64,000 nt of DNA from Saccharothrix syringae (GTDB lineage Bacteria > Actinomycetota > Actinomycetes > Mycobacteriales > Pseudonocardiaceae). Positions 29,976 through 57,286 of this stretch are shown here, one piece after another. The stretch is taken from the NCBI RefSeq assembly GCF_009498035.1, contig NZ_CP034550.1, forward strand, positions 7,502,001 to 7,566,000, in the 5' to 3' direction. The translations under genes were made by a program, and so were the position numbers. Positions within the stretch are counted from its first letter, which is position 1. Each line of letters starts with the position of its first letter. The notes below the pieces were generated by a model. The model saw nothing but the letters and a program-made list of their open reading frames with translations, searched no databases and was not told the DNA's origin.

Positions 29976-31294
29976 TCGCCGGCGTAGAGCCAGTCGCGGT
30001 ACTCGCGGTCCGGCGACTGGCGGCGCTGCCACGCCCACCGTTCGCCGCTGGTGAGCCCCGGCTCGGCGACGAAGAGGCGGTCGCGGAACCAGTCGCGCAG
30101 CTCGGCCACCCGGATCTCGAACTCCTCGACGGTCCCGGTGACGACCAGCAGGGCGCCCAGCATGTCGGCGGACGCCGAGAAGTTGGAGTTGAGGTTCGCG
30201 CCCGGCGGCACGTACATCTGGGCGAACGCCACGTTCGGCTGAGCGACCAGTTCGTCCGCGGTCGGGTAGCCGAACACGGTGCCCTCGGGGCCGTAGAGGG
30301 CGGCGCAGCCGACGACGTCGGGGTTGACCTTGACCACGAGTTCCGGCTTGTGGCCCAGCGCGCCGAGCAGGGCGGCTTCACCCATGTCGACGTTGAACTT
30401 GGCCATCACCTGCTCCTGCGTGAGGGCGCCACCGCGGCGGGCGGCGCACTCGCTGAACACGATGCGACCGGTGCCCTCCTCCTGGAACAGCTCCATGTGG
30501 AAGACGCCGTCCTGGAGGCCGAGCGCGGCGATCGCGTCGCGGACCACGGGGTCGGCGGCCCGGTAGGCGTCCGACTCCTGGACCGGGTCCAGGCGCCGCA
30601 GCGAGATCGGCACCTGGCCGGTGATCGCGTCCAGGCACGGCTGGGTGTACGCGCCCAGGCCGTAGAACAGCACCTCACCGCCGAAGACGACACCCTCGGC
30701 CATCCACTCCGAGCCGGGGATGTACTCCTCCAGCAGGAACGTCCGGTTGGTCTCCTTCTTCTCCCGGGCGGTGCGGCTCGCGGCCTCCAGGTCCTTGCGC
30801 TCGCGGACCACGCTGGTGGAGGTGGTGCCGCCGCCCGCGATGGGCTTGAGCACGGCCTGCTCGAACTCGAACTTGACGTCCTCGACGTGGTAGATGTCCT
30901 CGATGACCTCGCAGCGGGCGACCGGGACACCCGCTTCCCGCAACCTGGCCTTCTGCAACGACTTGTCGCGGAACAGCAGCGCCGTGGTCGGGTCGATCGA
31001 CCGGCAGCCCAGGGCGCGGCCCAGCACGGCCGCGGTCACCACGGAGAACTCCCAGGTGGTCTGCACCGCGTCGAACTTCTTGTCGCCGAAGCCCGCCCGG
31101 TGCAGCGCCGCGAGGCAGTCCTCCGATTTGGTCACGTCGTCGACGCGAATCATGGTGCCACCGGGTGGCACCTGGATGCGACCGGAGTCATATGCCCCCG
31201 AATTGCACAGCAACACCGCTTCGACGTTGCGCCGTTCGCACGCCCGCAACACATACGGGTCGGCGCCGATCAACAGAACGGACGTCCCAGTCAC
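29972..31294 (-). CDS. ATP-grasp ligase (carnosine-synthase / dipeptide-ligase type)
   Basis: A 440-residue ATP-grasp enzyme. A preATP Rossmann half (SVLLIGADPYVLRACERRNV) precedes the ATP-grasp core: DKSLQKARLREAGVPVARCE, AVLKPIAGGGTTSTSVV, FLLEEYIPGSEWMAEGVVF, and metal-binding GRIVFSECAARRGG. The C-terminal ~100 residues are extra. Such ligases activate a carboxylate as acyl phosphate and join it to an amine. In this cluster the obvious use is to couple the unusual amino acid to a second amino acid. GTG at 31294 is preferred because ggagggg sits just upstream. Confidence 0.85.
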   Translation of the reverse strand: MTGTSVLLIGADPYVLRACERRNVEAVLLCNSGAYDSGRIQVPPGGTMIRVDDVTKSEDCLAALHRAGFGDKKFDAVQTTWEFSVVTAAVLGRALGCRSIDPTTALLFRDKSLQKARLREAGVPVARCEVIEDIYHVEDVKFEFEQAVLKPIAGGGTTSTSVVRERKDLEAASRTAREKKETNRTFLLEEYIPGSEWMAEGVVFGGEVLFYGLGAYTQPCLDAITGQVPISLRRLDPVQESDAYRAADPVVRDAIAALGLQDGVFHMELFQEEGTGRIVFSECAARRGGALTQEQVMAKFNVDMGEAALLGALGHKPELVVKVNPDVVGCAALYGPEGTVFGYPTADELVAQPNVAFAQMYVPPGANLNSNFSASADMLGALLVVTGTVEEFEIRVAELRDWFRDRLFVAEPGLTSGERWAWQRRQSPDREYRDWLYAGE

Positions 31295-31897
31295 GTACCC
31301 CTCCAGAGTTCTGTTCACTTCCAATATTCGGAAGCCGCGTCATGCTATCGCCCGCGGAGCCCGCGGTGAGCGAATATTCCGCGCCGCGCAAACGATGAAC
31401 GCACAGTGACGCACTCGCCGGTCACCGTGGGCTCTATTCACCCGAATGTCCGTACCCCCTCGTTCGATGTTCACGACGGGTGTCCGCCATGCCCCCTCAA
31501 CAGGAACGTTCGCCACGAACGCGCCGATCGGGCGATCGGGGACGCGCAGTGCACTTCGGCACACCGAAACGGTTCCGACGAAAACCCGCGCCGACCCGCC
31601 ACCCGGACTTCACGCCGCAGCGGGCGCACGTGCGCGCACACCGCCGCCGGACCTTTCGGACATTCGGGTAAGCAACTCGCCGATCAGCTCATCGTACGAC
31701 GCTCCCGCGTCGGAACGGCGAGGTTTCGACAGACCGTGGAATCATCTGCCGAAAGATTGCCCGTTGATGGAAGATTTTACCCGGCTTGTCGACGCGACTG
31801 TTGGACGGGGGGCAATTCCTGCTACTTGTAGGACGTGCGCGCGGTCCCGCGGGCACCCGGCAGGGCATTCGGGGAGCCCACGTGCACCGGGGGCAGG
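31295..31897. promoter_or_regulatory. Divergent promoter region with AATATTCG inverted repeat
   Basis: 600 bases between the divergent ATP-grasp and aldehyde-dehydrogenase genes, lower in GC than its surroundings. AATATTCG at 31323-31330 and CGAATATT at 31371-31378 form an 8-bp inverted repeat near the ATP-grasp start. AT-rich palindromes of this kind suit an Lrp/AsnC protein, and one is encoded next door. No gene is supported in the stretch. Confidence 0.45.
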
Positions 31898-33337
31898 ATG
31901 ATCTCCTTCGACAACTTCGTGGACGGCAAGCGATGCGCGGCCGCCGACGAGCGGCGCCTGGACGTCGTGGACCCGACCACCGGAGAGGTCTACGCGACGT
32001 CGCCGCTGTCGGGCCGGGCCGACGTGGACGCGGCCGTGGACGCCGCCGCGCGGGCCTTCGAGTCGTGGCGCTGGACGACGCCGTCGGAGCGCCAGCTCGC
32101 CCTGCTGCGGATCGCGGACGCGGTCGAGGCGCGGGCCGCGGAGCTGGTCGACGCCGAGTGCGCCGACACCGGCAAGCCCCGTGCCCGCACGGCCGCCGAG
32201 GAGATCCCGCCGTGCGTCGACCAGCTCCGCTTCTTCGCCGGCGCAGCCCGGTTGCTGGAGGGGCGTTCGGCGGGCGAGTACCTGGCCGGGCACACCTCGT
32301 ACGTGCGGCGCGAGCCGGTCGGCGTGTGCGCGCAGGTGACGCCCTGGAACTACCCGTTGATGATGGCCGTGTGGAAGATCGCCCCCGCGTTGGCGGGGGG
32401 CAACACGGTGGTGCTCAAGCCGTCCGAGACGACGCCCGCCACGACCACCCTGCTCGCCGGGATTTGCGCGGAGTTCCTGCCGCCGGGGGTGTTCAACGTG
32501 GTGTGCGGCGACCGGGACACCGGACGTGCGCTGGTGTCGCACCCGAGGCCGGACATGGTGGCCATCACCGGGTCCGTCCAGGCGGGCATGGCGGTCGCCG
32601 AGGCGGCGGCGGCGAACCTCGCGCGGGCCCACTTGGAGCTGGGCGGCAAGGCGCCGGTGGTGGTCTTCGCGGACGCCGACATCGCCGCCGCGGCCGAGGG
32701 CATCGCGGCCGCCGCCTACTACAACGCCGGCCAGGACTGCACGGCGGCGAGCCGCGTCCTCGTCGCCACCGAGGTGCACGACGAACTGGTCGCCGCGCTG
32801 ACCGGACAGGCGCGCGCCACGCGGACGGGCGCGCCCGACGAGCCGGGCGTGGTCTACGGGCCGCTGAACAACGCCGCACAGCTCGACCGCGTGTCGGCGA
32901 CAGTCGACCGGCTGCCCGACCACGCCACCGTGCACCACGGCGGGTCGCGGGTCGGCGAACGGGGTTACTTCTACGCGCCGACGGTCGTGTCCGGGGTGCG
33001 CCACGACGACGAGGTCAGCCAGAACGAGATATTCGGGCCGGTGATCACGGTGCAGTCCTTCAGCGGCGAGGACGAGGCCGTGCGGTGCTCCAACGCAGTC
33101 CGGTACGGCCTGGCGTCGTCGGTCTGGACCAGGGACCACAGCCGGGCGATGCGGATGACCGCGCGGCTGGACTTCGGCTGCGTCTGGGTCAACACGCACA
33201 TCCCGTTCGTCGCCGAGATGCCACACGGCGGGTTCAAGCACTCCGGATACGGCAAGGACCTGTCGCTGTACGGGTTCGAGGACTACACCCGGATCAAGCA
33301 CGTGATGAGCGCGGTCGAGGGCCTCCCCGGCAGCTAG
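31898..33337 (+). CDS. NAD-dependent aldehyde dehydrogenase (betaine-aldehyde type)
   Basis: A 479-residue ALDH. The oxyanion loop TPWNYPLMMAVWKIAPALAG, general base Glu247 in LELGGK and nucleophile Cys281 in YYNAGQDCTAAS are all intact. It groups by sequence with betaine-aldehyde and aminobutyraldehyde dehydrogenases, which oxidise small cationic aldehydes. In plants a betaine-aldehyde-type ALDH makes DMSP from DMSP-aldehyde, and the Burkholderia bur cluster has an ALDH (BurE) for the same step. That role is therefore inferred here. It is divergent from the main operon. Confidence 0.9.
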   Translation: MISFDNFVDGKRCAAADERRLDVVDPTTGEVYATSPLSGRADVDAAVDAAARAFESWRWTTPSERQLALLRIADAVEARAAELVDAECADTGKPRARTAAEEIPPCVDQLRFFAGAARLLEGRSAGEYLAGHTSYVRREPVGVCAQVTPWNYPLMMAVWKIAPALAGGNTVVLKPSETTPATTTLLAGICAEFLPPGVFNVVCGDRDTGRALVSHPRPDMVAITGSVQAGMAVAEAAAANLARAHLELGGKAPVVVFADADIAAAAEGIAAAAYYNAGQDCTAASRVLVATEVHDELVAALTGQARATRTGAPDEPGVVYGPLNNAAQLDRVSATVDRLPDHATVHHGGSRVGERGYFYAPTVVSGVRHDDEVSQNEIFGPVITVQSFSGEDEAVRCSNAVRYGLASSVWTRDHSRAMRMTARLDFGCVWVNTHIPFVAEMPHGGFKHSGYGKDLSLYGFEDYTRIKHVMSAVEGLPGS

Positions 33338-33384
33338 CGGCGGGCGTCCGACCGCCGGGCGCACCGACCGGGGGGCAGCCCGCC

Positions 33385-33532
33385 GCGGACCGCACCGACC
33401 ACCACCCCGCCACGCGGACCGCACCAACCACCACGCCGCCACGCGGACCGCACCGACCACCACCCCGCCACGCGGACCGCACCGACCGCCGCCCCGCCAC
33501 GCGGACCACCAACCACCACGCGGACCGACCCG
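33385..33532. repeat. 29-bp tandem repeat, four full units plus shortened copies
   Basis: The unit begins gcggaccgcaccgaccacca and recurs at 33385, 33414, 33443 and 33472 with one or a few changes, then degenerates at 33501 and 33520. It has no unique spacers, so it is a minisatellite. It lies between the ALDH and the Lrp gene; the remaining ~115 bases before the Lrp gene hold its promoter. Confidence 0.85.
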
Positions 33533-33649
33533 GCCACCGCCCGCAGCGCGGGCCGGTCGGGTCGGTTGGTGGAGCACGACACTGCCCGTCTGGGCCCGGA
33601 GGGATGGTGTATTATCGCGGCATCGCCCTTCAATAGAAGGATCTGCCAC

Positions 33650-34108
33650 ATGGACGCCATCGACCGGAAGATCCTTGCCGCGCTCCAGGACGACGGTCGG
33701 TTGACCGTCACGGAGCTGGCTTCCCGGGTCGGGCTGAGCGTCTCGCCGTGCCACCGTCGCTTGCGCGAACTGGAACGCGTCCGGACGATCCGCGGCTACC
33801 GGGCGGTGGTGGACGCCGCGGCCCTCGGGTTGACCTTCCAGGCGCTGGTGTTCGTGACCATGCGGCAGGAGGACCGCAACACCCTGCTCGGCTTCGAGGC
33901 GGCGGTCGCCTGCATCCCGGAGGTCGTCCAGGCGCAGCGGCTGTTCGGCGACCCCGACTACCTGCTGCGCGTCGTCACCGCCGACCTCGCCGCCTACCAG
34001 CGCCTGGAGGACGACCACCTGGCGGCGTTGCCCGGCATCCAACGGCTGACGTCCACGCTGGTGATGAAGGACGTGGTCGACAGCCGCCCCCTGTCCGCCC
34101 CCGCGTAG
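33650..34108 (+). CDS. Lrp/AsnC-family regulator
   Basis: A 152-residue protein: MDAIDRKILAALQDDGRLTV, the usual Lrp opening, with the HTH in LASRVGLSVSPCHRRLRELE (residues 18-45) and a RAM ligand-binding domain (~65-145, with FGDPDYLLRVVTADLAAYQR). Lrp proteins sense amino acids. The likely ligand is an amino acid of the pathway, such as methionine, arginine or the product. It is the only regulator in the island and lies 45 bases from the end of the main operon, convergent with it. Confidence 0.9.
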   Translation: MDAIDRKILAALQDDGRLTVTELASRVGLSVSPCHRRLRELERVRTIRGYRAVVDAAALGLTFQALVFVTMRQEDRNTLLGFEAAVACIPEVVQAQRLFGDPDYLLRVVTADLAAYQRLEDDHLAALPGIQRLTSTLVMKDVVDSRPLSAPA

Positions 34109-34152
34109 GCCCCGTGCGCCGCGGCACGGGGCGTGCGCGGAGTGCACGCGGT

Positions 34153-34929
34153 CTAGTTCAGCAGGTCGACGACCTCCCCGTGCAGCACCAGATCGCCGGC
34201 GGCGAGGACGCGGGACCGCGAGCCGAGGTGCAGTTCCGCGCCCGACCACTCGGTGACGATGCCGCCCGCGCCGCTGATGACGGCGGCCGGGGCGAAGACG
34301 TCGTAGACCTTCAGGCCGCTGTCCACCGCCAGGTCCGTGCGACCGGCGGCGAGCATCCCGTAGGCGTACGAACTGGCCCCGTACAAGGTGTACCGGACGG
34401 CGTCGCGGACCGTCGCGAACGCGGCGTGCTCCTGCGGTTGGAAGAAGTCCGGGTTCGAGCACGTGGCCAGCGCGGTGGCGAGGTCGGCGCAGGGCCGGGT
34501 CCGCACCGGGACGTCGTTGCGCGTGGCGAACACGCCGCTCTCCCCCACCCAGCGGTCCCCGGTCGCGGGGTAGTCCAGGACGCCCAGCCACGGCCTGCCG
34601 CGCCGGCTGAGGCCGATCAGCGTGCCGTAGACCGGGATTCCGGCGATGAACGGCGCGGTGCCGTCCAGCGGGTCGAGCACCCACACGAACTCGGCGTCGA
34701 GGTCGTGCGAGCCGAACTCCTCCCCCAGCACGCCGTGGTCGGGGTAGTGGTGCGCGATCAGCTCGCGCAGCCTGGTCTCGATGGCGCGGTCGGTCGCGGT
34801 GACGAAGCTGTTGTCGGCCTTGGTGTCGACCGAGGCGGGCTCCGCCACCGCGCGGCCCAGCAGGTGCCTGCTCTCGTCGGCCAGGCGTTCGGCGAAGCGG
34901 ATGAGCTCGGCGGTGGAAGTGTCGGCCAT
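34153..34929 (-). CDS. Inositol-monophosphatase-family phosphatase (HisN-like)
   Basis: A 258-residue metal-dependent phosphatase. Metal ligands are in LGEEFGS, the core motif VWVLDPLDGTAPFI and the second motif VYDVFAPAAVIS. The sequence is closest in style to HisN histidinol-phosphate phosphatases, which remove phosphate from a 2-amino-3-carbon phosphate ester. That shape matches phosphoserine-type compounds. It is the last gene of the ~19-kb minus-strand operon, 54 bases after the SerC-like gene. In the proposed route it removes the phosphate from the phosphorylated amino acid. Confidence 0.88.
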   Translation of the reverse strand: MADTSTAELIRFAERLADESRHLLGRAVAEPASVDTKADNSFVTATDRAIETRLRELIAHHYPDHGVLGEEFGSHDLDAEFVWVLDPLDGTAPFIAGIPVYGTLIGLSRRGRPWLGVLDYPATGDRWVGESGVFATRNDVPVRTRPCADLATALATCSNPDFFQPQEHAAFATVRDAVRYTLYGASSYAYGMLAAGRTDLAVDSGLKVYDVFAPAAVISGAGGIVTEWSGAELHLGSRSRVLAAGDLVLHGEVVDLLN

Positions 34930-34983
34930 GGTGATCCATCCCCCCAGGTGGTGCACCCGTGACCCGGTCGGCCACCGACCGGG

Positions 34984-36147
34984 TCAGGTGAACTCGGTCA
35001 GCGTCTCGGACAACGCCCAGTCGATCCACGGCAACAACTTCTCGATGTCGGCGGTGTCGACCGTGGGGCCGCCCCAGATCCGGAGCCCCGGCGGGGCCTC
35101 CCGGTGTGCGCTCAGATCGTAACCTGCGCCGTTGTCCTCGACCTTGCGGCACAAGCTCTTCACGAACTCCCACCGCGGTGCGCGGATGCCGTCCAGCAGG
35201 CCGTCGTCGAACTTCAGGCAGATGCTGGTCGGCGATATCGTCTCCTTGCGCTCGGCCAGGAACTCCAGGTGCGGGTGGGCTCGGACCCACTGCTCGACGG
35301 CGGTGAAGTTCCGGTGCGTGCGCGCGACCAGCTCGGCGCCACCGCCGATGTCGGCACACCAGCGCAACGCGTCGAGCGCGTCCTCGACGGCGAGCATCGA
35401 CGGCGAGTTGATGGTGAAGCCCTCGAACAGCTCGTCGATCAGCCGTCCGTCGCGGACGAGGCGGAAGACCTTCGGCAGGGGCCGGTCGGGTCGGAACGCC
35501 GCCAGGCGCTCGACGGCCGCCGGGGACAGCGCGATCATGCCGTGCGCGCCCTCACCGCCCAACGCCTTCTGCCACGACCACGTGATGACGTCGAGCTTGC
35601 GGTAGTCGATCTCCATGCCCAGCACGGCCGAGGTGGCATCGCAGATCGTCAACCCCCGGCGGTCGTCCGGTATCCACCCGGCTCCGGGCACGCGGACCCC
35701 GGACGTCGTGCCGTTCCAGGTGAAGACCACGTCGCGGTCGAAGTCCACCCGGCTCACGTCGGGGAACGCGCCGTACCGCTCCGCCCGGTGCACGGTCACG
35801 TCGTCGAGGCGCAACTGGTCGGAGATGTCGTGCAGCCAGGTGAACCCGAAGTTCTCCCAGCAGCACACCTCGACACCGGTGTACCCCAACAGGTTCCACA
35901 TGGCCATCTCGATCGCCCCGGTGTCGGAACCGGGCACGATCGCGACGCGGTAGTCGGCAGGCAGGCCGAGCACCTGCTTCGACCGCTCGATGACCTCGAA
36001 CAGCCTCGCCCGGCCGGCCGGGTCGCGGTGGGAGCGCCCGACGAACGCCTCCCGCAGCGCGTCCGGGTCCCAACCCGGGCGCTTGGCGCACGGCCCGGAG
36101 GAGAACCACGGCCGTGCCGGTTTGAGGGTGGGTTTCTCGGTGCGCAT
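34984..36147 (-). CDS. Phosphoserine-aminotransferase-like enzyme (SerC family)
   Basis: A 387-residue fold-type I PLP enzyme of the proteobacterial SerC type. The phosphate-binding SHR is kept (FVGRSHRDPAGRARLF), as are the PLP-binding Asp170 in ICDATSA and the Schiff-base Lys194 in WSWQKALGGE. SerC converts 3-phosphohydroxypyruvate and glutamate to phosphoserine. As a cluster copy it probably aminates a phosphorylated 2-keto acid analogue. Its neighbours (kinase, FAD dehydrogenase, phosphatase) supply the other steps of a serine-like route. Confidence 0.9.
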   Translation of the reverse strand: MRTEKPTLKPARPWFSSGPCAKRPGWDPDALREAFVGRSHRDPAGRARLFEVIERSKQVLGLPADYRVAIVPGSDTGAIEMAMWNLLGYTGVEVCCWENFGFTWLHDISDQLRLDDVTVHRAERYGAFPDVSRVDFDRDVVFTWNGTTSGVRVPGAGWIPDDRRGLTICDATSAVLGMEIDYRKLDVITWSWQKALGGEGAHGMIALSPAAVERLAAFRPDRPLPKVFRLVRDGRLIDELFEGFTINSPSMLAVEDALDALRWCADIGGGAELVARTHRNFTAVEQWVRAHPHLEFLAERKETISPTSICLKFDDGLLDGIRAPRWEFVKSLCRKVEDNGAGYDLSAHREAPPGLRIWGGPTVDTADIEKLLPWIDWALSETLTEFT

Positions 36148-36244
36148 GGTTCTCCTCGCCCCGGGGACGCGAGGAGCGCCGACCGGTTCTCACGTGGTGG
36201 GCAGGTGTGCCCCGCGGTGGCACACCTGCCCGGTTGCCCCGGTT

Positions 36245-37285
36245 CTACCGGGTGAGGCTGACGAAGTGCCTGCGCGGCCCGTCGAAGGCGAAACGCCCGT
36301 GCTGGAGCACCTGGTTGTCCAGCACCAGCACGTCGCCCGGCGACATCCGCACCGCCCGGGTGGTCCGCCACAGCGCGCCGCGCAGGAACGAGATCAGCTC
36401 CTCGTCGATCGGGGACCCGTCGCCGTACGCGGTCGTCGCCGGGTACTCGTGGTCGGGCAGGCCGGGCGGGAAGTGCGGGTGCGACCGCCAGTACGAGCAG
36501 TGCAGTTCGGTGACCTGGTTGAACCACAGCTCCTCCCCGGTCTCGGGGTGAGCGGTGAACGCCTCCCGCCTGTAGTGGTACCGCAGCTCGTCCTCCCCGC
36601 CCCACTCGAAGTCGAAGCCCGACGCGGTGAGGTGCTCCTCGATCGCGCCCTTGTCCTCGGTCCGGAACGTGGCGACCCACCCCATCTCGCCGTTGGAGTT
36701 CTCCCGGGCGAGGTTGCGGTGGTACCGGATGCCCTTGTCCCGGAAGGTGCGCTTGACGTCCTCCGGGATGATCGCGCCGGTCTCGCGGATGTCGTTGACG
36801 GGCACCTCGCCGCCGCTGGTCGCCGCGCTCTCGCAGAAGAACAGGATCCGGCGCGGGTAGTTCGGCAGGTACGCCATCTCGTTGTGCGGCGACAACGTGA
36901 TGCGGTGGTCCTCCTGGCTGGCGTTGAGCGCCACGCCCGCGTCGTTCGCGCGGACCGCGATGCCGCCCTCGTACCCGGTGCGGTCATACCCCAGGTTCGC
37001 CACGAGGTGCTCGAACCCGGCCTTGGCGGTCAGCGGCAGGCCCCGCAGCAGGACCCCGCCGTACCGGGGCAGCGCCTCGTCGACGGCCGCCCGGACGGCG
37101 GCGGGTGAAACCGAGCCGTCCGCGCCGAGCACCGGGATCATGTCGCCGATGTCCGGGACGCTGTCCGGGAAGTTCTCGTGCTCCGAACCGGCCAGGAACT
37201 CGCGGTGCCGGACCGGGACCTCGAAGTGCGGGCCGTGCTCGATCCGGCGGAAGGCCGACCCGCCCGCACCTGGACTCGTGTTCAC
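36245..37285 (-). CDS. Fe(II)/2-oxoglutarate oxygenase (TauD/SyrP/clavaminate-synthase type)
   Basis: A 346-residue jelly-roll oxygenase. The iron triad is His134-x-Glu136 (SPHNEMAYLPN) and His329 (LQHGRFAFDG), with Arg residues following for 2-oxoglutarate. The HxE variant (in place of HxD) is shared with clavaminate synthase and arginine hydroxylase VioC. The overall style, including LRGLPL and FCESAATSGGEVPVND, is SyrP-like. It hydroxylates an unactivated C-H. In the proposed pathway it would add the C2 hydroxyl that turns gonyol into gonydiol; hydroxylation of an amino acid is the alternative. Confidence 0.88.
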   Translation of the reverse strand: MNTSPGAGGSAFRRIEHGPHFEVPVRHREFLAGSEHENFPDSVPDIGDMIPVLGADGSVSPAAVRAAVDEALPRYGGVLLRGLPLTAKAGFEHLVANLGYDRTGYEGGIAVRANDAGVALNASQEDHRITLSPHNEMAYLPNYPRRILFFCESAATSGGEVPVNDIRETGAIIPEDVKRTFRDKGIRYHRNLARENSNGEMGWVATFRTEDKGAIEEHLTASGFDFEWGGEDELRYHYRREAFTAHPETGEELWFNQVTELHCSYWRSHPHFPPGLPDHEYPATTAYGDGSPIDEELISFLRGALWRTTRAVRMSPGDVLVLDNQVLQHGRFAFDGPRRHFVSLTR

Positions 37286-37343
37286 CTTGTGCCCCCATGG
37301 CTCGTCCGATCCTCAAACGCGCGTCGCGGTACCGACATCGCGC

Positions 37344-38261: not shown

Positions 38262-38299
38262 CTCTTCAACCCCCAAGCTCGCGCAGCCTGCGGCCGGCG

Positions 38300-39724: not shown

Positions 39725-39824
39725 GCCGTCACCTCCAGGTTGTTCCGAGTCGGTGTCGTCCTTGCTGCTGCCCCCTGGTGGTCGCTACGGCGCCGGCGGC
39801 GCCGCCGTGAGGTGTGGCGCCGTG

Positions 39825-41246: not shown

Positions 41247-41294
41247 CGTTTCCAGCCCTTCCTGCCGTGTGCCGTTCGCCGACCCGGGTCCCGG

Positions 41295-42275: not shown

Positions 42276-42306
42276 GCATCGCCTCCCGGGGCGTGGTGTC
42301 GCACGG

Positions 42307-45455: not shown

Positions 45456-48400
45456 CTCGACGTCCTGACAGCAACGAGTGGAGTTCGTCCAGCCGCCGGT
45501 CCGGTCGCGCGATCTCGGCGAGCGGCACGTCCTCGCCGAACGCCCGCGCGAAGTCGCCCCGGATCCGCACGAAGTCCAGCGAGTCCAGGCCGAGGTCGGC
45601 GAGCAGTTCGGACTCGTCCCACCGGTACACGTAGGCGCTCAGGAACTCGCGGACGGGGTCCACCTCGGTGACCGGCTCCGCGGCCAACCCCACCACCTTC
45701 TCGGCGACTTCCCCCGCAGCTCGCCCCGGCGGGCGCGAGTCCGCCCGCGGCGCCCCGTGCCACGTCGGGAGGCCGACGACCAGCGGGAGCCCCACCCAGG
45801 GCTCACGGCTCCAGTCGACGTCGCACGCGGCGAACACCCGGCCCGAAGCGCCGGACAGCACGGCCGCCACGACCTTCCCGAGCAGGTTGAGCGCCGTCTC
45901 GGACGCCAGCGGCGCCTCGCCGGCCGCGCGCGCCGAGTTCAGGGCCTTGGCGCTGCGGGCGGCCATGCCGACCTCGCCCCATGTGCCCCAGTCGACCGTC
46001 ACGACGCCCGGGGCGTCGGCGGTCCACCGGGCGTAGGCGTCCATCCACGCGTTCGCCGCCGCGTAGTTCGCCTGACCGGCCGCGCCGAGCAGCGCGCTGG
46101 TGGACGAGAACGCGACCGTCCACGGCGCGCCCAGCCCGGCCAGGTCTGCCAAGGCGAGCTTGGGCGCGAGCACCGCGTCGAACCGGGACGCGTCCAGGTT
46201 GCGCAGCACACCGTCGTCCAGCGCTCCGGCGAGGTGGAAGATCCCCGCGAGCGGCCCGATGTCGTTGGCGAGCACGGGCACGTCGAGCGGGCGGGCGAAG
46301 TCGATCGGCACGAACCGCACACCGGGCCTCAGGACGCCGGGATCGGTGCGACCCGACACGACGACCCGCTCGGGCGCCACGTGCTGGTGGTGGATCAGCC
46401 AGTCCACGACGACCCGGCCGATACCGCCGGTGCCGCCCGTGACCAGGTAGCTCCCGGTCGCACCACCGAGCGTGCCGGGCGGCAGGTCGGGTGAGGGGAC
46501 GGGCAGGAGCCGTTGGGCCAGCAGGTGTCCGCCTCGCCACACCAGGTCCGTCTCGTCCGGGTGGGAACGCGCGGCGCGCAGCAGTGGTCCCACCCACGCC
46601 GGCCGGTCGGCGGGCCAGTCCTGGACGTAGACCCGTTGCACGGTCAGGCCCGGTTCCTCGTGGGCCAGCGACCGGGTGATGCCGGTGGCCAGCCCGCTGT
46701 CGGCGTCCGCGGGCAGGACCAACACGAGCCTGCCGCGCGACTCGGCCCGCAGCAGGGACTTCAGCAGCTCCAGGAGCACCGCGCACCGCTCTGTCGGCGG
46801 CGCGTCCGCCGACGGCGGGCACAGCAGGGCAGCATGCGCCCGAGGACCCGTCAGGTGGTCGCGGAAGAACCGCGCCGCGTCGGGTGCGAGTTCGGTCCAC
46901 GGCACGTCGGGCGCGTCGGCGGCTCGACCCGCGGGCACCCAGCGGACCTCGTGCAGCCCCGGTCCGGGGTCCACCGGGTCGAGGCGGCCGAGGAACGCGG
47001 TGATCCTCTCCAGGACCGCGTCCCGCCGGTGCAGCATGAAGTCGTGCGCCCCGGGGTGGGTGTGCACGTCCACGACGGGGCTGGTGGTGATCGCGGCCCA
47101 TTCCGTCGCCGACGCCAGGGGGAACGACGGGTCGTCGGTCGCGCAGTGCACCTGGAGCGGGCATTCGAGCACCTGCCCGCGATCGGCGGCGCGCCGGGCG
47201 GACCGGGCGTCGAAGGCGAGGTCCGCGCGCAGGACCGGCAGCACGGACCGCCGCCACGCCGGGTCGTCCCGCAGTTCGTCGGGAACCATCAGGTACGACT
47301 CCGGCTCCGCCGGATCGGCCCCGCCGGCGAGCGGCGCGCGGCCGACCGCGACGACGGCCGTCACCCGTCCCTGCCGGGCCCAGTCCGACAGCGGGCCGCC
47401 CAACAGATCCAGGGCGAGCGACGCGCCGAAGCTCAGGCCGCAGAACGCGACCGCGCCTGATCCGGCGTCCGCGCGGATGTGCCGGGCCAACTCCTCCAGC
47501 ACCGCGGCGTCGTCTTCGGCAGCACCGGCGGCGGCGTCACGTCCGGGCAGTTCCACGGCGATGACGTCCAGCCACGACGGCGCCGTGCGCGCCCACGACC
47601 GGAACGCACCGGAATTCCCACCCGCGTAGGGGAAGCAGTAGAGCCTGACCCGTGCGTCCGGCTTAGCGGCGAACCGCACCAGCGGGGTCGGCGCGGGCGC
47701 GGTCTCCTGCGGTCGCGGGTCGACGTGGATCGACGCCGACGGGTTGGTCCAGTAGCTCGTCGGCTCGAAGCTGTAGGTCGGCAGCAGGCGGCGGATCGAG
47801 CGCTCCCCTTCGTGGAAAGCCGCGAAATCCAGGTCCACCCCGCGGCACCAGAGCTCACCGAGCACCCTCAGGAACGCGACCTCGTCGTCCCGGTCCCCGT
47901 TCTTCACGTCCGGCATGGTCGCGACCGGCAGCGGCCGGGTCTCACCGCGGTGCCGGAGAATCTTCGCGGTCAACGAGGTGAGCACGTTCCCGGGGCCGAT
48001 CTCCAGGACGACGTCGGGTTCCCACTTCAGCAGCATGGCGACGTCCTCGCGCCACCGGACCGTCGACGTCACGTGCTTCGCCCAGTAGGTCCGGGGCCGA
48101 TACCGGGAATCGAGCCACGTGCCGGTGAGGTTGGCGGCCAGCGGAACAATTGGCGACCGCGCTTCCAGGCCGGACGCCGCCGCGTCGAGCCGTTCCGCGA
48201 CGGGAGCCATCAGGTCGCTGTGGAACGGGTGGGACACCGGCACGCGGCGGACGGTGAAACCCAGTGCGGGCAACGCTTCCGCGGCTTCCAGCAGTGCACC
48301 CTCTGTCCCCGACAGAACTATCCGCCCAAATGAATTCTCCACGGCCCACCACAGGTTTTCGCGCCCGTCCAGCCAGTCCGCGAGGAGGTCTTCGTCGCCG

Positions 48401-51400
48401 ACGACGCTGAGCATCCCGCCGACGCTCCCCCCGGCGAGCATGTCCTCCGTCGCCCGCGCCCGCACGGCCACGAGGGCGGATGCCTCGTCCAGTGCCAGCA
48501 CCCCAGCCGCCACCGCGGCGGCGTACTCGCCGATGCTGTGCCCGGCGACCGCCACCGGCCGCACCCCGATGTCGGTCAACGTCATCGCGAGCGCGTACTC
48601 CACGGCGAACAGCCCGCACTGCGTGGTGACGGGCCGCTGCACCGACTCGTCGTCCGCGCCGAGGATCAGCGCCACCGGGTCCTCCGGCAGGTGTCGCGCC
48701 AGGCTCGCGCCGACCGCGTCGAAGTGCCACCGGAACCGGCCGCCGTCGCCGCGGCCCCGGTACAGGCCGCGCGCCATGCCCGCGGCCTGCGAACCCTGGC
48801 CGGAGAAGCTGAACGCCACGGTGGCGACGTGACCGGGCGGCAGCGTCACGTGCGGCGGGTGCTCGGCCAGGGCGCGCAGTTCGTCCAGGGAGCCCGACGC
48901 GATCACCGCACTGCCGCGCAACGGGTGCGCTTCGCGGTCCACGTGCGAGGAACGGATCGCGGGGGCGACGTCCGGTTCCGGGACCCCTTCCAGGAAGCGC
49001 GCCAGCGCGGTGGCGTTGCGGTGGTAGGGGCCCTCGCCGCGCGCCGACACCGTCACCAGGTGCAGCGACCGCGACGACGGCTCGTCGGGCGCGCGTTCGG
49101 GGGCTTCTTCGAGGATCACGTGGGCGTTCGTGCCGCCGATGCCGAAGCTCGACACCCCGGCCCGCCGGGGCAACTGGGTCCGCGGGTCGGTGACCGCCCA
49201 CTCCCGGCAGGTCTCCTGCACGGTGAACGGCGACCCGTCGGCGTCGACGAAGTCCACCAGCTTCGGGTTGAGCGTCCGGTAGTTCACCGTCGGCGTGAGC
49301 ACCCGGTGGTGCAGGCACAGCACGGTCTTGATGAAGCCGGTGATCCCGGCCGCGCAGTTGGCGTGGCCGATGTTGCCCTTGACGCTGCCGATGGCGCAGC
49401 TACCCGCGGTGAACCCGTCGCCGGCGCGGTGCGCGGTGAACGCGTCGAGCAGTGCCTTGACCTCGATGGCGTCGCCCACGTGGGTGGCGGTCGCGTGGCA
49501 CTCGACGTAGGAGATCCGCTCGGCGTCGATGCCGGCCATCTCGATGGCGTCGGAGATGCACTGCGCCTGCGCGCGGGCGCTCGGCGCGGCGTAGCCCGCC
49601 TTCATCCGGCCGTCATTGGACACCCCGAACCCGGTGAGCACGGCCCAGACGTGGTCACCGTCGGCGAGCGCGTCGTCGAGCCGCTTCAGCACGACGGCGC
49701 CGACCGAGTCCCCGAACAGGGTGCCGCTCGCGCCGTCGTCGAACGGCCGGACGCGGCCGTCGGCGCTGCCCACCAACCCGTCCGCGTAGCGGTACCCGAA
49801 GTTGGGGAACGTGAGCGAGGAGCCGCCCGCGATCGCCATGTCGCACTGGCCGGACGTGATCGCCTGCGCGGCCTGCGCCACGGCCACCAGCGCGCTGCTG
49901 CACGCCGAGGTGACGGTCATCGCCGGGCCGCCGAGGTCGAGCAGGTAGGCGACCCTGGTGGCGATGTAGTCCTTCTCGTTGCCGATCTCGGTGAGGAACA
50001 GGCCCGTCGGGTCCAGCGGGTCCTTCAGGCCGCCGCCCGCCAAGTGGTGGATCAAGTACCCGTCGATGCCGCACGCCGCGAACACCCCGGTGCGCCGCCG
50101 ATAGGGGTTGTCCCTGCGCGCGTAGCCAGCCTGTTCGAGCGCGGACCACGCGGTTTCCACGAAGACGCGGTGCTGCGGGTCCATGATGACGGCCTCGCTG
50201 CGACCGATGCCCCAGAACTGCGCGTCGAACTTGTCCGCGTCCGCCACGACCTGGCCCGCCGCGACCCACTCGGGGTGGTTGACGATGTGCTCCGGGACGC
50301 CCTTGTCGCGCAACCGCTCCGACGAGAACTCGGTCAGGGAGTCGGTGCCGTTCTTCAGGTTCTCCCAGAACTCCTCGATCGTCGAGGCGCCCGGGAAGCG
50401 CCCGGCCATCCCGACGACGGCCAGCTTCGTCGTCCCCGCCCCGGAGGGGCGTCGCGCCGGGACGGCATCGCCGTCCGCCTCGCGGCGGGAGCAGTGCGCG
50501 GCCATCGCGCTCAGCGTGCTGAACTGGAAGACGTCGACGACCGCGAGCGAGATGCCGAACCGCTCGGCCAGCACGCCCGACAGGCGCGCCGCGCTGAGCG
50601 AATCCCCGCCCACGTCGAAGAAGTTGTCGTCAGCCTCGACGCGCCGCAGCCCCAGGACCTCCTGCCACGCGCGGGCGATGCGCCGCTCCATGGTGGTCAG
50701 CGCGTCCGCCGGCCCATCCTCGTCCTCCTCCGCCGGTGGTGGGGGCAGCGCCGACAGGTCGAGCTTCCGCGAGTCGCTCTTGCTGATCGGCAGGCTGTCC
50801 AGGCCGATGAAGTGCCGCGGACGCGCGTACTCCGGCAAGTCGCGCTTCGCCTTGAGCCGGGACCGCGCCAGCATGGTCTCCGACGGCCGGCCTTCCTCAC
50901 CGAGGAGGTAGGCGAGCAGGCCGGTCGGCTGGTTCGTGCGGCTGTCCAGCACGGCGCGCACGACCACGCGGGCGATGCCGGGCTGGTCGGCCAGGACGTG
51001 TTCGACGGCGCGCAGCGACACCTTGAAACCCCGTACCTTGACCACGTCCCCGGCGCGGCCCAGTACTTCCAGCTCGCCGTCGGGCAGGAACCGGGCGCGG
51101 TCGCCGGTGCGGTAGAAGGTGGCGTCGGCGAACGCGGTGTCGCGCAGCGCGTCCGGGCAGGGCACGAACCGCTCCGCGGTTTTCCGCGGGTCGTTCAGGT
51201 AGCCCTCGCCGACACCCGGACCGGCGAAGTGCAGCTCGCCCACTCCCCCGAGCGGGACGGGTTCGCCGTCCGCGTTCAGCAGCACCGCCGCACTGCCGTC
51301 CAGGAGGCGACCGACGCGCGCGAACGGCGAGCGGACGGTCTCGTCGGGTCGTGCGGGCAGCAGGTCGGCGAAGGAGATGTCCAGGCATTCCCACGTGCTG

Positions 51401-53124
51401 TAGGAATTCACCAGCCGCACGTGCGGCGGCAGCAGGGCGGCGGCTTTGTCGACGATCCGGTTCGGCACAACCTCGCCCATCAGGAACCACACTTCCATGT
51501 GGGCAAGGCGCTCGGCGAGGCTCGGGCCGACGAACGGGTGGTCGAGCACGCTTTCGAACAGCGAGGGCGGTACCACTACACGGGTAATGCGGGATTCCAC
51601 GATCGTGTCGATCAGCCGGACCGGGTCGACGATGTGGTCGTCCGGGATGACCACCGCCGGTCTGCCCTGGAGGAGCGGCCGAATGCACTCCCACGCGAAG
51701 AACGCGTTCAGGCCCTCGCAGGACGATTCCTGGTACGGGTAGAGCTCGTAACGCGCGTCGAAGCAGTAGAGGCAACCCAGGTGGGTGTTCAGCACCGCTT
51801 TCGGCGTGCCCGACGTGCCGCTGGTCATCGAGATCAACGCCGTGTCGCCCGGCGCGACATCCGGGAACTCCACCGGCGGCGGGTCGCGCCGGCGGTCCGC
51901 GGTGAGCACCAGGTGCCGGTCCGGGGTGCGGAACGAGAGCGGGAGGAGTTCGGCGAGTTCGGCGGTCGTCAGCACGATCTCGACACCGGCGTTCTCCAGG
52001 AACTCGGCGAGCAGCGATGTCGGCCAGTTCTTCTCCAGCAGGCAGGCGGGGGAACCGGTGCCGAGGCACGTGAGCAGGCTGACGCAGTACTCGGCCGAGC
52101 GGGGGAACAACAGGCCCACCACATCGCCCTTGCCGACACCGAGCGCCGCCAGTTCCGAGGCGAGCGCGGTCGCGCTGTCGGCGAGTTCGCGATAGGTCCA
52201 GCGGCGAGGGTGGTCGACCAGCGCGAGGGCGTCCGGCGCCGACGCCACCTGTTCGCGGAAACGCGCCCAGATCGAGCGGCCCGGGTCGGGGTAAGGGCTT
52301 CCGGGCAGGGTGATCGACGGGCCGATCCGGGTCTTGGCGCGGTCGAGGTGCCGGCCGATGCTGTCGAGCAGGGCGGGGCGCGCGCTGATGGTGTAGAAAT
52401 GGCCGCCTGGGAAAAGTTCGAGGTCGAACGGGATGTCGGCGGAGAAGTGCTCGCGCCACGCCTGGAGTTCGTCCACGTCGACCGTGCGGTCATCGGCTCC
52501 GCCGTACACGACGCACGAGACGGGCAGTGTTCGACCGGTCACCGCGCCGGTTTCGGCGACGTATTCGTCGTCCAGCTTCAGATCGGCGCGCAGCGGCGGG
52601 AGGACGATGCGGAGCAGTTCCTCGTCGGCGAGCGTTCCCTCGGGCACCAGGCCCCAGGCCCGCACCAGGTCGAGGAACTCCGACTCGGGGAGGGAGAACC
52701 TCGCCCGGTCGCGCCCGGAGAGGTGCGGGGCGCAGTGCGCGGAAACGAACAGCACTTCAGGTGTCCGCCGGCCCTGGTCGGCCAGGCGGCGGCACACCTC
52801 GAACGCGACCAGTGCGCCGAAGCTGTGCCCGAAGAACGCGAACGGCGTGCCGTCCCAGTGGCGGAGGACGAGGTCGGCGAGGTCGTCCACCAGGTCGTCC
52901 CACCGCTGGTGGGGGGACTTGTCCCAGTCGCGACCCCGCCCGGGTAAGGAGTACGCGACCACCTCGACGTCCTCCGGCAACCCCGACGGCCAGTCGGCGA
53001 AGGCGTGGTGGTCGCCGCCCGCGTGCGGGAAGGCGAATAATCGGAGGGCCACGTCTTCCCGGCGCGCGACAACAATCGACTCGATGCCTCGATGCCCGTT
53101 CGCCTCTTCCTCGGAGCGCAGCAC
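45424..53124 (-). CDS. NRPS-PKS megasynthase TE-A-PCP-KS-AT-TE-KR-ACP
   Basis: 2566 residues. TE1 ~25-260 (GHSFG, Ser101); adenylation ~295-790 (SMTSGTSGTPKAVL, YRTGDRARFLPDG, Lys in SKSDSRKLD); PCP Ser842; KS ~899-1345 (Cys1075, His1210, His1254); AT ~1435-1780 (GHSIGEYAA, Ser1530; malonyl-type HPFH 1632-1635); TE2 ~1826-2045 (GLSFG, Ser1898); KR ~2050-2450 (TGGTGGIG, Tyr2354, LDD, B-type); ACP Ser2515. There is no condensation, dehydratase or enoylreductase domain. The adenylation A4 region reads NAFFAWEC where FDxSxWE is usual, so the amine-binding Asp is Ala474: an acid without alpha-amine is expected. One malonate extension and ketoreduction of DMSP would give gonyol. GTG start with agaggggg upstream. 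First gene of the main operon. Confidence 0.92.
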   Translation of the reverse strand: MLRSEEEANGHRGIESIVVARREDVALRLFAFPHAGGDHHAFADWPSGLPEDVEVVAYSLPGRGRDWDKSPHQRWDDLVDDLADLVLRHWDGTPFAFFGHSFGALVAFEVCRRLADQGRRTPEVLFVSAHCAPHLSGRDRARFSLPESEFLDLVRAWGLVPEGTLADEELLRIVLPPLRADLKLDDEYVAETGAVTGRTLPVSCVVYGGADDRTVDVDELQAWREHFSADIPFDLELFPGGHFYTISARPALLDSIGRHLDRAKTRIGPSITLPGSPYPDPGRSIWARFREQVASAPDALALVDHPRRWTYRELADSATALASELAALGVGKGDVVGLLFPRSAEYCVSLLTCLGTGSPACLLEKNWPTSLLAEFLENAGVEIVLTTAELAELLPLSFRTPDRHLVLTADRRRDPPPVEFPDVAPGDTALISMTSGTSGTPKAVLNTHLGCLYCFDARYELYPYQESSCEGLNAFFAWECIRPLLQGRPAVVIPDDHIVDPVRLIDTIVESRITRVVVPPSLFESVLDHPFVGPSLAERLAHMEVWFLMGEVVPNRIVDKAAALLPPHVRLVNSYSTWECLDISFADLLPARPDETVRSPFARVGRLLDGSAAVLLNADGEPVPLGGVGELHFAGPGVGEGYLNDPRKTAERFVPCPDALRDTAFADATFYRTGDRARFLPDGELEVLGRAGDVVKVRGFKVSLRAVEHVLADQPGIARVVVRAVLDSRTNQPTGLLAYLLGEEGRPSETMLARSRLKAKRDLPEYARPRHFIGLDSLPISKSDSRKLDLSALPPPPAEEDEDGPADALTTMERRIARAWQEVLGLRRVEADDNFFDVGGDSLSAARLSGVLAERFGISLAVVDVFQFSTLSAMAAHCSRREADGDAVPARRPSGAGTTKLAVVGMAGRFPGASTIEEFWENLKNGTDSLTEFSSERLRDKGVPEHIVNHPEWVAAGQVVADADKFDAQFWGIGRSEAVIMDPQHRVFVETAWSALEQAGYARRDNPYRRRTGVFAACGIDGYLIHHLAGGGLKDPLDPTGLFLTEIGNEKDYIATRVAYLLDLGGPAMTVTSACSSALVAVAQAAQAITSGQCDMAIAGGSSLTFPNFGYRYADGLVGSADGRVRPFDDGASGTLFGDSVGAVVLKRLDDALADGDHVWAVLTGFGVSNDGRMKAGYAAPSARAQAQCISDAIEMAGIDAERISYVECHATATHVGDAIEVKALLDAFTAHRAGDGFTAGSCAIGSVKGNIGHANCAAGITGFIKTVLCLHHRVLTPTVNYRTLNPKLVDFVDADGSPFTVQETCREWAVTDPRTQLPRRAGVSSFGIGGTNAHVILEEAPERAPDEPSSRSLHLVTVSARGEGPYHRNATALARFLEGVPEPDVAPAIRSSHVDREAHPLRGSAVIASGSLDELRALAEHPPHVTLPPGHVATVAFSFSGQGSQAAGMARGLYRGRGDGGRFRWHFDAVGASLARHLPEDPVALILGADDESVQRPVTTQCGLFAVEYALAMTLTDIGVRPVAVAGHSIGEYAAAVAAGVLALDEASALVAVRARATEDMLAGGSVGGMLSVVGDEDLLADWLDGRENLWWAVENSFGRIVLSGTEGALLEAAEALPALGFTVRRVPVSHPFHSDLMAPVAERLDAAASGLEARSPIVPLAANLTGTWLDSRYRPRTYWAKHVTSTVRWREDVAMLLKWEPDVVLEIGPGNVLTSLTAKILRHRGETRPLPVATMPDVKNGDRDDEVAFLRVLGELWCRGVDLDFAAFHEGERSIRRLLPTYSFEPTSYWTNPSASIHVDPRPQETAPAPTPLVRFAAKPDARVRLYCFPYAGGNSGAFRSWARTAPSWLDVIAVELPGRDAAAGAAEDDAAVLEELARHIRADAGSGAVAFCGLSFGASLALDLLGGPLSDWARQGRVTAVVAVGRAPLAGGADPAEPESYLMVPDELRDDPAWRRSVLPVLRADLAFDARSARRAADRGQVLECPLQVHCATDDPSFPLASATEWAAITTSPVVDVHTHPGAHDFMLHRRDAVLERITAFLGRLDPVDPGPGLHEVRWVPAGRAADAPDVPWTELAPDAARFFRDHLTGPRAHAALLCPPSADAPPTERCAVLLELLKSLLRAESRGRLVLVLPADADSGLATGITRSLAHEEPGLTVQRVYVQDWPADRPAWVGPLLRAARSHPDETDLVWRGGHLLAQRLLPVPSPDLPPGTLGGATGSYLVTGGTGGIGRVVVDWLIHHQHVAPERVVVSGRTDPGVLRPGVRFVPIDFARPLDVPVLANDIGPLAGIFHLAGALDDGVLRNLDASRFDAVLAPKLALADLAGLGAPWTVAFSSTSALLGAAGQANYAAANAWMDAYARWTADAPGVVTVDWGTWGEVGMAARSAKALNSARAAGEAPLASETALNLLGKVVAAVLSGASGRVFAACDVDWSREPWVGLPLVVGLPTWHGAPRADSRPPGRAAGEVAEKVVGLAAEPVTEVDPVREFLSAYVYRWDESELLADLGLDSLDFVRIRGDFARAFGEDVPLAEIARPDRRLDELHSLLSGRRGAGKASRVVG

Positions 53125-53489
53125 GCGACAACCCCCTCTGAGGCCGTCCGGCCTTCTCCGAGTACAGAGACGTCATCATGGAACCAGCGTACTGTTACCC
53201 TGGGGTTAATACCTGGAACCACGACTCCCAAGGCTTTCCGGCACATCGACAATCCTCGCACACACCATTCTTCGGGTATGCGAAGATTAGTCACATCAAG
53301 ATTTGAAAAGTATCAGCTCAACTGGGGTCCGTCAAGCCGCTGCCCAGCCCCGGACCAGCGGTCACCGAACGTGAACCGAACGGCGTCCGGACGGGTAGCC
53401 GGACGCCGGCATATCACTCGGTTGGCGGATACGGCATCGGGTGGAATATCGATCAAAAGAGCGATCAACCCAGGTCGACGCGGCTTTGA
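53125..53489. promoter_or_regulatory. Promoter region of the main biosynthetic operon
   Basis: A 365-base gene-free stretch upstream of the megasynthase, AT-richer than average. TGGAACCA occurs as a direct repeat at 53179-53186 and 53214-53221. Exactly between them is the near-palindrome TTACCCTGGGGTTAA (53195-53209), so a symmetric operator is likely 55-100 bases before the start codon. The remainder also contains the hairpin listed separately. Confidence 0.5.
53382..53407 (-). terminator. 9-bp perfect hairpin after the YbaK-type gene
   Basis: ggcgtccgg pairs perfectly with ccggacgcc around an 8-base loop (acgggtag). It lies 83 bases past the stop of the YbaK-type gene and upstream of the megasynthase promoter, so it should insulate the two units. 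Confidence 0.65.
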
Positions 53490-53978
53490 TCAGGTCTGAG
53501 AAATCGCCTCGACCTGGGGCTGGGCGATCATCTCGTAGTCCTTCGTGGCCAGGCCGATGGAACGATCAAGACGGGCCGCGTTGAAGAACACTTCGGGATG
53601 CTGGAGCACCTCGGGGTCCACCACCAGCGTCAGGCGCTCGTCGAACGAGAACGGCGGGATGGAACCCACGGGGCACCCCGCCAACTCCTCGGCGACCTCA
53701 CGGGGGGCGAACGACGCGTACGTTCCCCCGAACAGGGCCTTCACCTTGGCGAAATCGACCCGCTTCGGCCCGGGCAGGACGATCGCCGCGTAACGGGTCT
53801 CCTTCTTGCCGACCTTCACCATGACGACGATGCACTTGGCGGCCTGCCGCTGGTCGTACCCCGCGTGCAGGCTCACGGCCTCGGTGTTCCCCTCCGGAGG
53901 GTGTTCCATCACCCGATAGGCGGCACCCCGCTCGTCCAGCAGGGTGGTCAGCTTGCGGTAAGTGTCGTCCGAGGTCAT
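53490..53978 (-). CDS. YbaK/ProX-type aminoacyl-tRNA deacylase
   Basis: A 162-residue single-domain protein of the INS/YbaK superfamily, which hydrolyses amino acids wrongly attached to tRNA. The catalytic Lys is in QAAKCIVVMV; GGTYASFAPREVAEELAGCP and VGSIPPFSFDERL follow the family pattern. Standing next to a pathway for an amino-acid analogue, it could clear tRNA mischarged with the product. It has its own promoter space (154 bases to the MHS gene stop). Which tRNA it edits cannot be read from sequence. Confidence 0.85.
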   Translation of the reverse strand: MTSDDTYRKLTTLLDERGAAYRVMEHPPEGNTEAVSLHAGYDQRQAAKCIVVMVKVGKKETRYAAIVLPGPKRVDFAKVKALFGGTYASFAPREVAEELAGCPVGSIPPFSFDERLTLVVDPEVLQHPEVFFNAARLDRSIGLATKDYEMIAQPQVEAISQT

Positions 53979-57228: not shown

Positions 57229-57286
57229 AACGATCCGGCGATCGTGGACCGGTGGGGGTGGGCGGGGCGAACGGGTTTGCGCCGGC

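Follow-up and report, generated by a model that had tools for sequence, protein, structure and literature searches.

The window analysed here, 64,000 nucleotides of the Saccharothrix syringae genome (positions 7,502,001-7,566,000 of NZ_CP034550.1, the single contig of the 10.93-Mb genome), carries a gene cluster that probably makes a small peptide containing the cyclopropanol amino acid cleonine. The proposed route runs from methionine through dimethylsulfoniopropionate (DMSP), gonyol, gonydiol and trigonic acid, and ends with a four-enzyme module resembling serine biosynthesis. Genes were called from third-position GC content, and families were assigned by comparison with Pfam, NCBIfam and the PDB. 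The original prediction for this DNA had named a methionine S-methyltransferase, a pyridoxal 5'-phosphate (PLP) decarboxylase, an aminotransferase, an aldehyde dehydrogenase (ALDH), a megasynthase, a 2-oxoglutarate (2OG) oxygenase and a homologue of ketol-acid reductoisomerase (KARI); each of these is encoded, and all of the enzyme genes it named are present at 29,972-53,124 (coordinates are those of the window, and genes lie on the minus strand unless a plus is given). Ten genes of the same direction run from 53,124 to 34,153, never more than 100 bases apart, in the order megasynthase, glycerate-kinase-like protein, FAD-dependent dehydrogenase, KARI, aminotransferase, decarboxylase, MmtN-like methyltransferase, 2OG oxygenase, SerC and phosphatase. 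A YbaK gene precedes this run. Behind it, on the opposite strand, are the genes of an Lrp regulator and the ALDH, followed by an overlapping pair encoding an ATP-grasp ligase and a major facilitator superfamily (MFS) transporter. The same core set recurs in other genera, which argues that it is not a chance neighbourhood. The predicted extent of 30,000-53,978 leaves out the MFS gene. Because the MFS gene (28713-29975) shares a four-base overlap with the ATP-grasp gene (29972-31324), and because this pair is found again in cluster-bearing genomes, either with the cluster or at another place, the start of the cluster is better placed near 28,713.

The central enzyme is the KARI homologue (41295-42275), a putative cyclopropanol, or trigonic acid, synthase. 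A PDB search gave 317 bits against the BurG structures and at most 196 bits against any other KARI. When the 8000 candidates with the most shared words were scored, 117 homologues were found at E ≤ 1e-60, and these were split into 64 sequences close to the window protein, here called clade A, and the remaining 53. Leaving aside the window's own entry and a partial sequence at 83%, clade A members are 64-79% identical to the window KARI. A tree was built from 27 selected rows (10 from clade A and two from IlvC); BurG itself was compared by score. Clade A forms a single group with support of 100/99. A larger group of 16 rows, likewise at 100/99, contains clade A, two further rows and bur-type KARIs from Eleftheria, Paraburkholderia and Pseudomonas. 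Both IlvC rows fall outside this group, the reverse of the IlvC placement that the original prediction had named in advance as speaking against it. The Eleftheria KARI in the tree scores 546 bits against BurG. In BurG, N48 and D51 exclude NADP (PMC9359912), and the window KARI has N44 and D47 at these positions. This N/D pair is conserved in 62 of the 64 clade A rows, the other two being gapped; of the 53 rows outside clade A, all have the D and 43 have the N. IlvC of the same strain, encoded separately elsewhere in the genome, carries L and S there, and it scores 258 bits against KARI_N, compared with 181 for the window protein. By these comparisons the window KARI is of the BurG type and not an IlvC. 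Following established BurG chemistry, its expected reaction would expel dimethyl sulfide and yield trigonic acid, 2-hydroxy-2-(1-hydroxycyclopropyl)acetic acid.

The substrate of this reaction would be supplied by a megasynthase and an oxygenase. The BurA-type megasynthase (45424-53124), a putative gonyol synthase of 2566 residues, shows the domain order TE-A-PCP-KS-AT-TE-KR-ACP when the full sequence is searched against Pfam. The predicted A-PCP-KS-AT-KR-ACP domains are thus all there, and an N-terminal and an internal TE had been overlooked. Residues 27-2562 align with residues 16-2638 of a BurA-like protein from Eleftheria at 48.7% identity over 2651 columns; the comparison was made with this protein and not with BurA itself. 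The adenylation domain of BurA, which is without the aspartate that binds the alpha-amino group, loads DMSP (PMC7496086). The window domain is alike in this respect: FFAWEC replaces the FD motif, and the aspartate corresponding to GrsA D235 is missing, its site being A or E according to how the gaps are placed. In the A4 region, the window shares FFAWEC(I/L)RPL with Nitrospirillum, Saccharothrix (G438), Actinacidiphila (G711) and Eleftheria, and a pattern search of the translated Agrobacterium vitis megasynthase did not find it. The megasynthase would load DMSP, add one malonyl unit, reduce the product and release it as gonyol. The 2OG/Fe(II) oxygenase (36245-37285) belongs to the TauD family (Pfam TauD, E 1.3e-32) and is 52% identical over 328 residues to the TauD protein of the Eleftheria bur-type cluster. 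In the role of BurC, it would hydroxylate gonyol to gonydiol.

DMSP itself would be formed from methionine by S-methylation, decarboxylation, transamination and oxidation. The predicted methionine S-methyltransferase (37344-38261) gave only a weak Methyltransf_25 match in Pfam. Its sole relative in the PDB is 7vvv (377 bits, E 5.5e-112, 283 residues), deposited as "SAM-dependent methyltransferase", which we take to be MmtN of Roseovarius indicus; the window enzyme can thus be described as MmtN-like. The PLP decarboxylase (38300-39724) is of the LysA/ornithine decarboxylase family (Pfam Orn_Arg_deC_N, E 1.2e-31), is 50% identical to the Eleftheria bur-type decarboxylase and is a putative S-methylmethionine decarboxylase. 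The class III aminotransferase (39825-41246; Pfam Aminotran_3, and above the cut-off of PRK07036) is 61% identical to its Eleftheria counterpart. The ALDH (31898-33337, plus strand) is of the aminobutyraldehyde/betaine-aldehyde type, scores 691.6 bits against NCBIfam PRK13473 (cut-off 615), is 52% identical to the Eleftheria bur-type ALDH and is a putative DMSP-aldehyde dehydrogenase. In Burkholderia, the roles of decarboxylase, aminotransferase, ALDH and 2OG oxygenase are filled by BurI, BurD, BurE and BurC (PMC7496086, PMC9359912), and the window proteins are assigned correspondingly. The logic of the predicted pathway has strong homology support: the MmtN-like enzyme, decarboxylase, aminotransferase and ALDH would lead to DMSP, the megasynthase to gonyol, the oxygenase to gonydiol and the KARI to the cyclopropanol, with the serine-like module and the ATP-grasp enzyme after it. 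Considering the homology to assayed Bur enzymes, the route very likely reaches trigonic acid.

Trigonic acid can be seen as a glycerate whose C3 bears a cyclopropane ring, and the cell may handle it like glycerate. The four serine-pathway-like enzymes of the original prediction are real genes, encoding a glycerate-kinase-like protein, a GlpD-like flavoenzyme, a SerC_2-type transaminase and a phosphatase of the inositol monophosphatase (IMPase) family. The kinase (44184-45437, 417 residues) matches no Pfam family. A profile of 21 homologues matched the D-glycerate 3-kinases 6ckg (E 5.7e-14) and 7xpc (E 7.6e-12), and in the PDB profile search D-glycerate 3-kinases and one yeast relative were the only solved relatives. 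Its P-loop, GSPGAGKT, is invariant or nearly so in the 21 rows, and GDDWYL is nearly invariant. The FAD-dependent DAO/GlpD-like dehydrogenase (42307-44130; Pfam DAO, E 2.8e-25) matches structures of glycerol-3-phosphate dehydrogenase/oxidase at E 9e-15 to 1e-9 and lies below the NCBIfam cut-offs. The transaminase (34984-36147) exceeds the cut-offs of both PRK03080.1-2 (569.7 bits, cut-off 477) and TIGR01365 (510.5 bits, cut-off 448.2). The other SerC of the genome, a serC_3 product encoded at 560,010, is 24% identical to it. The last enzyme of the module is a HisN-like phosphatase (34153-34929; Pfam Inositol_P, E 1.5e-44).

Because trigonic acid is the cyclopropane analogue of glycerate, these four enzymes probably repeat the phosphorylated serine pathway. 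The kinase would phosphorylate the cyclopropanol oxygen of trigonic acid, the flavoenzyme would oxidise the neighbouring 2-hydroxyl group of the phospho-trigonate, SerC would aminate the resulting phosphorylated keto acid, and the phosphatase would remove the phosphate from phospho-cleonine to release cleonine, (1-hydroxycyclopropyl)glycine. The proposed order (phosphorylation of O3, oxidation of C2, transamination by SerC and dephosphorylation) is the same as in the phosphorylated serine pathway with D-glycerate 3-kinase. However, the module would work like that pathway and would not be the pathway itself: the serine pathway uses NAD-dependent SerA and SerB, whereas the cluster has an FAD-dependent GlpD-like enzyme and an IMPase-family phosphatase and neither SerA nor SerB, and the proposed substrate carries the cyclopropane at C3. 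The phosphate may double as a protecting group: left free, a 1-hydroxycyclopropyl ketone might undergo ring expansion through an alpha-ketol shift or ring opening through one-electron oxidation. On the enzyme families present, we consider it likely that cleonine is formed. Passage through phosphorylated intermediates is also likely, if slightly less so; it is suggested by this chemistry and by the relatives of three of the module enzymes, which use glycerate or phosphorylated three-carbon substrates.

Distribution data connect the module with the KARI. All four module genes occur together with a clade A KARI in eight of the eight genomes in which the surroundings of the KARI gene were read: S. 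syringae, two other Saccharothrix genomes (G437 and G438), G709, Actinacidiphila (G711), Nitrospirillum (G710), A. vitis (G712) and G533, a 74%-complete genome classed in the family of S. syringae, in which the module genes are spread over two contigs, so that physical linkage is not established there. A ninth locus, on p_4 of Rhizobium lusitanum, is cut: it has the kinase, the flavoenzyme and, at the end of the stretch, residues 2-54 of SerC. In this plasmid copy (L040:11809-24919) the aminotransferase, KARI and megasynthase genes are in pieces, and the copy is a decaying cluster. Sharing of genes across contigs was judged from the equal size of listed contigs. By this measure, among the 40 contigs that carry the kinase and are 6 kb or longer, 31 also appear in the list for clade A KARIs and nine do not; non-clade-A KARIs share none but a coincidental contig of 1461 bases, too short for both genes. 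The cluster is rare, being found in four of 390 genomes of the family and one of 394 of the class sample (S. syringae itself counted in both, and the only one in the latter). In the order sample, two of 397 genomes gave a kinase match, S. syringae and one weak match at E 5.6e-4. Eleftheria terrae P9846-PB has on a 737-kb plasmid (L039) a bur-type cyclopropanol polyketide cluster, which encodes a SET-domain methyltransferase and a KARI that closely resembles BurG. When the 16 window proteins were compared with the 41-kb stretch holding that cluster, the four module proteins had no match at E 1e-5, and the kinase had none at the same threshold in the whole plasmid record.

The cluster may end in a dipeptide. 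The ATP-grasp protein (29972-31324, start uncertain) has as its best PDB relatives the L-amino acid ligases 4wd3 (E 6e-19) and 3vot (E 2e-7), which are ATP-grasp enzymes like it but distant; three of its four PDB matches are named L-amino acid ligase and the fourth is a biotin carboxylase. It would couple cleonine to a second amino acid, and the MFS efflux transporter (28713-29975; Pfam MFS_1, E 1.9e-20), a candidate exporter, would pump out the product. An orthologue of the ligase is present in five of the seven cluster-bearing genomes searched (70-78% identity) and adjoins cluster genes in G533, G709 and G711. The MFS gene adjoins the ATP-grasp gene in all five (G437, G438, G533, G709 and G711; 67-79% identity). 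In G438, this separate pair lies near a gene for a 1052-residue protein (L056:5030-8188) that, judged by eye, resembles a glycyl-tRNA synthetase with GlyQ and GlyS fused.

The YbaK-family aminoacyl-tRNA editing domain (53490-53978; Pfam tRNA_edit, E 2.3e-23) adjoins the cluster in G437, G438, G709, G711, G712 and on p_4 of Rhizobium, at 36-77% identity; no copy turned up in the 60 kb of Nitrospirillum sequence searched or on the two G533 contigs. In cleomycin, cleonine takes the place of threonine. It might therefore plausibly be charged onto tRNA by mistake, and YbaK may serve as self-protection by clearing such tRNA. Beside YbaK, the two other Saccharothrix genomes encode proteins of 559 and 243 residues (L023:15370-17794 and L025:15662-18086). 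In the L023 copies, the former has a weak PLP-decarboxylase match and the latter no Pfam family, and the two may possibly serve further tailoring of cleonine. The Lrp/AsnC-family regulator (33656-34108, plus strand, start uncertain; Pfam AsnC_trans_reg and HTH_AsnC) has homologues of 42-86% identity adjoining the cluster in G437, G438, G533, G710, G712 and L040.

Several observations weigh against the proposed route or narrow it. In the KARI, the position of the cation-pi residue Y133 of BurG is F in all 64 clade A rows (F129 in the window, still aromatic), the sister order of clade A inside the bur-type group is weak (82/54), and E228, which matches the catalytic E232 of BurG, is not diagnostic, because IlvC has this residue too. 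Among the genomes read, the three of Saccharothrix alone have the ALDH gene next to the cluster. Nitrospirillum has a 35% match, and none was found in the stretches read of G709, G711, G712 and G533, so the set is not fully conserved. A missing cluster-side ALDH would nevertheless be tolerable, since loss of burE merely lowers production in Burkholderia (PMC7496086). The kinase is only distantly related to glycerate kinases of proven function (38 bits, E 1.1e-8 as a single sequence), and the phosphatase scores 250.4 bits against the HisN model, below the cut-off of 275.15. The absence of the module from bur-type clusters is read from one cluster, that of Eleftheria, on its plasmid. Finally, in G437 and G438 a distance of 86-99 kb separates the ATP-grasp gene from the core, and Nitrospirillum and A. 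vitis gave no match to it at E 1e-40, which suggests that a dipeptide step would be a local ending and not part of the core.

The last point bears on an alternative in which the cyclopropanol product is different, for example free cleonine, a decarboxylated amine or cleonine for a distant nonribosomal peptide synthetase (NRPS), the ATP-grasp enzyme being unrelated. In Nitrospirillum, NRPS/polyketide synthase (PKS) genes adjoin the core instead (recognised by similarity to the window megasynthase and by eye), in A. vitis a gene for a LysE-type exporter does, and in G437 and G438 YbaK has the weakly matching PLP-decarboxylase-family gene as its neighbour. However, the ATP-grasp and MFS genes follow YbaK in G709 and G711 and follow SerC, HisN and Lrp genes in G533. 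Moreover, 11 contig sizes are common to the 57 close ATP-grasp entries and the clade A KARI, although one of them (6463 bases) may be a coincidence, as the sources differ. We regard such another product as rather unlikely, and lean, with some reserve, towards a dipeptide. Cleonine might also be made without phosphorylated intermediates, by direct oxidation of trigonic acid and action of SerC on the free keto acid, with the kinase and phosphatase acting elsewhere, for example in a self-protection cycle on the amino acid or peptide. Kinase/phosphatase pairs serve self-protection in other antibiotic pathways, and the DAO family includes 2-hydroxyacid dehydrogenases. The solved relatives of the kinase (D-glycerate 3-kinases and the yeast protein), the scores of SerC above two curated cut-offs and the resemblance of the flavoenzyme to glycerol-3-phosphate dehydrogenases all point the other way, and this variant appears improbable.

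Two further readings were considered. The DMSP, gonyol, gonydiol and KARI genes are common to the window and the Eleftheria bur-type cluster, as they would be if the window encoded a malleicyprol-like polyketide. However, the window genes examined include no SET methyltransferase, FkbH, stand-alone AMP ligase or thioester-reductase megasynthase, but SerC, the kinase, the phosphatase and the ATP-grasp enzyme instead, and we give this reading hardly any weight. An osmolyte locus with a spare IlvC appears equally far-fetched: DMSP and gonyol are osmolytes (PMC7496086), but the KARI groups with the bur types and the genome has a separate IlvC. Returning to the cleonine route, the data can be extended to a wider proposal, on which we are evenly divided, of a portable cleonine cassette spread from actinomycetes to alphaproteobacteria. 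It would combine a copy of the serine pathway re-aimed at a glycerate analogue, phosphate as protecting group, interchangeable endings (ATP-grasp dipeptide, NRPS/PKS or amino acid export) and, usually, self-resistance by YbaK.

The original prediction considered the pathway undescribed, which is too strong. Little et al. 2024 (ACS Chem Biol 19:660) reportedly derive the cleonine of valgamicin C (Amycolatopsis) from DMSP by a malleicyprol-like route, with a BurG-like origin of the cyclopropanol. In addition, nine other organisms are described as having burG orthologues together with the full set of gonydiol genes (PMC9359912), and published work names NRPS-linked Group I mmtN genes in Streptomyces mobaraensis and A. 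vitis, for which DMSP and perhaps gonyol are predicted as intermediates (PMC9135737). These mmtN loci belong to the same family as the window, and both species have a clade A KARI and the kinase; the relevant passages of PMC9135737, in contrast to our reading, propose no amino acid branch. The derivation of cleonine from DMSP is thus not new. The phosphorylated mimic of the serine pathway and the dipeptide-ligase ending were not found in the mostly open-access literature searched, and Little et al. 2024 may hold the former.

Among known systems, the bur/mal cluster for malleicyprol in the Burkholderia pseudomallei group (PMC7496086 and PMC9359912) has the same DMSP-gonyol-gonydiol-trigonic acid chemistry. 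It encodes BurA, BurB, BurC, BurD, BurE, BurG and BurI, and has in common with the window a BurA-type megasynthase, a BurG-type KARI, a TauD-family hydroxylase, a decarboxylase, an aminotransferase and an ALDH. The methyltransferases differ, that of the bur/mal cluster being a SET-domain enzyme whereas that of the window is MmtN-like, its sole PDB relative 7vvv being a class I enzyme. In addition, bur builds trigonic acid into a polyketide, whereas the window adds four genes that would lead towards an amino acid. Valgamicin C is a cyclic depsipeptide containing cleonine (PMC13194151, which cites Little et al.), unlike the ATP-grasp dipeptide proposed here. If the proposal is correct, a reactive cyclopropanol would be turned into a usable amino acid by borrowed serine-synthesis logic, with phosphate as protection. 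The combination of a BurG-type KARI, a glycerate-kinase-like protein and SerC_2 would then be a genetic signature for cleonine peptides. DMSP chemistry of soil bacteria would be linked to peptide antibiotics, and the single enzymes can be assayed on synthetic trigonic acid.

The surroundings of the cluster include several further genes. An MHS-type metabolite/H+ symporter (54133-55416), beside YbaK, was considered as a core gene; it had no match in the cluster loci searched and is probably outside the core. An intact arginyl-tRNA synthetase (ArgRS; 26051-27829) was considered as a self-resistance gene of the cluster and rejected, because 15 of 25 genomes of the genus, S. syringae included, have a match at E ≤ 1e-60, whereas G437 and G438, the two other KARI-bearing genomes of the genus, have none. 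In the other 14 genomes, the matches are at 78-87% identity (eight), 58% (one) and 49-52% (five). An ArgRS gene of a second type is present in two pieces on the same strand (25232-25711 and 56605-57423), which flank the cluster; the intact gene lies just inside them and encodes a protein sharing about 45% identity with the pieces. Elsewhere in Saccharothrix, argS is adjoined by both an amylase and an ADH gene at three loci: L061 and L065, where it is of the intact type, and L070, where it is of the fragmented type. In further loci of the genus, where the stretches are short, one of the two is present. The island seems to have landed in a resident argS and broken it. A transposase-like gene with an rve integrase core domain (55709-56563) lies between the cluster and the argS piece and is possibly a trace of this arrival.

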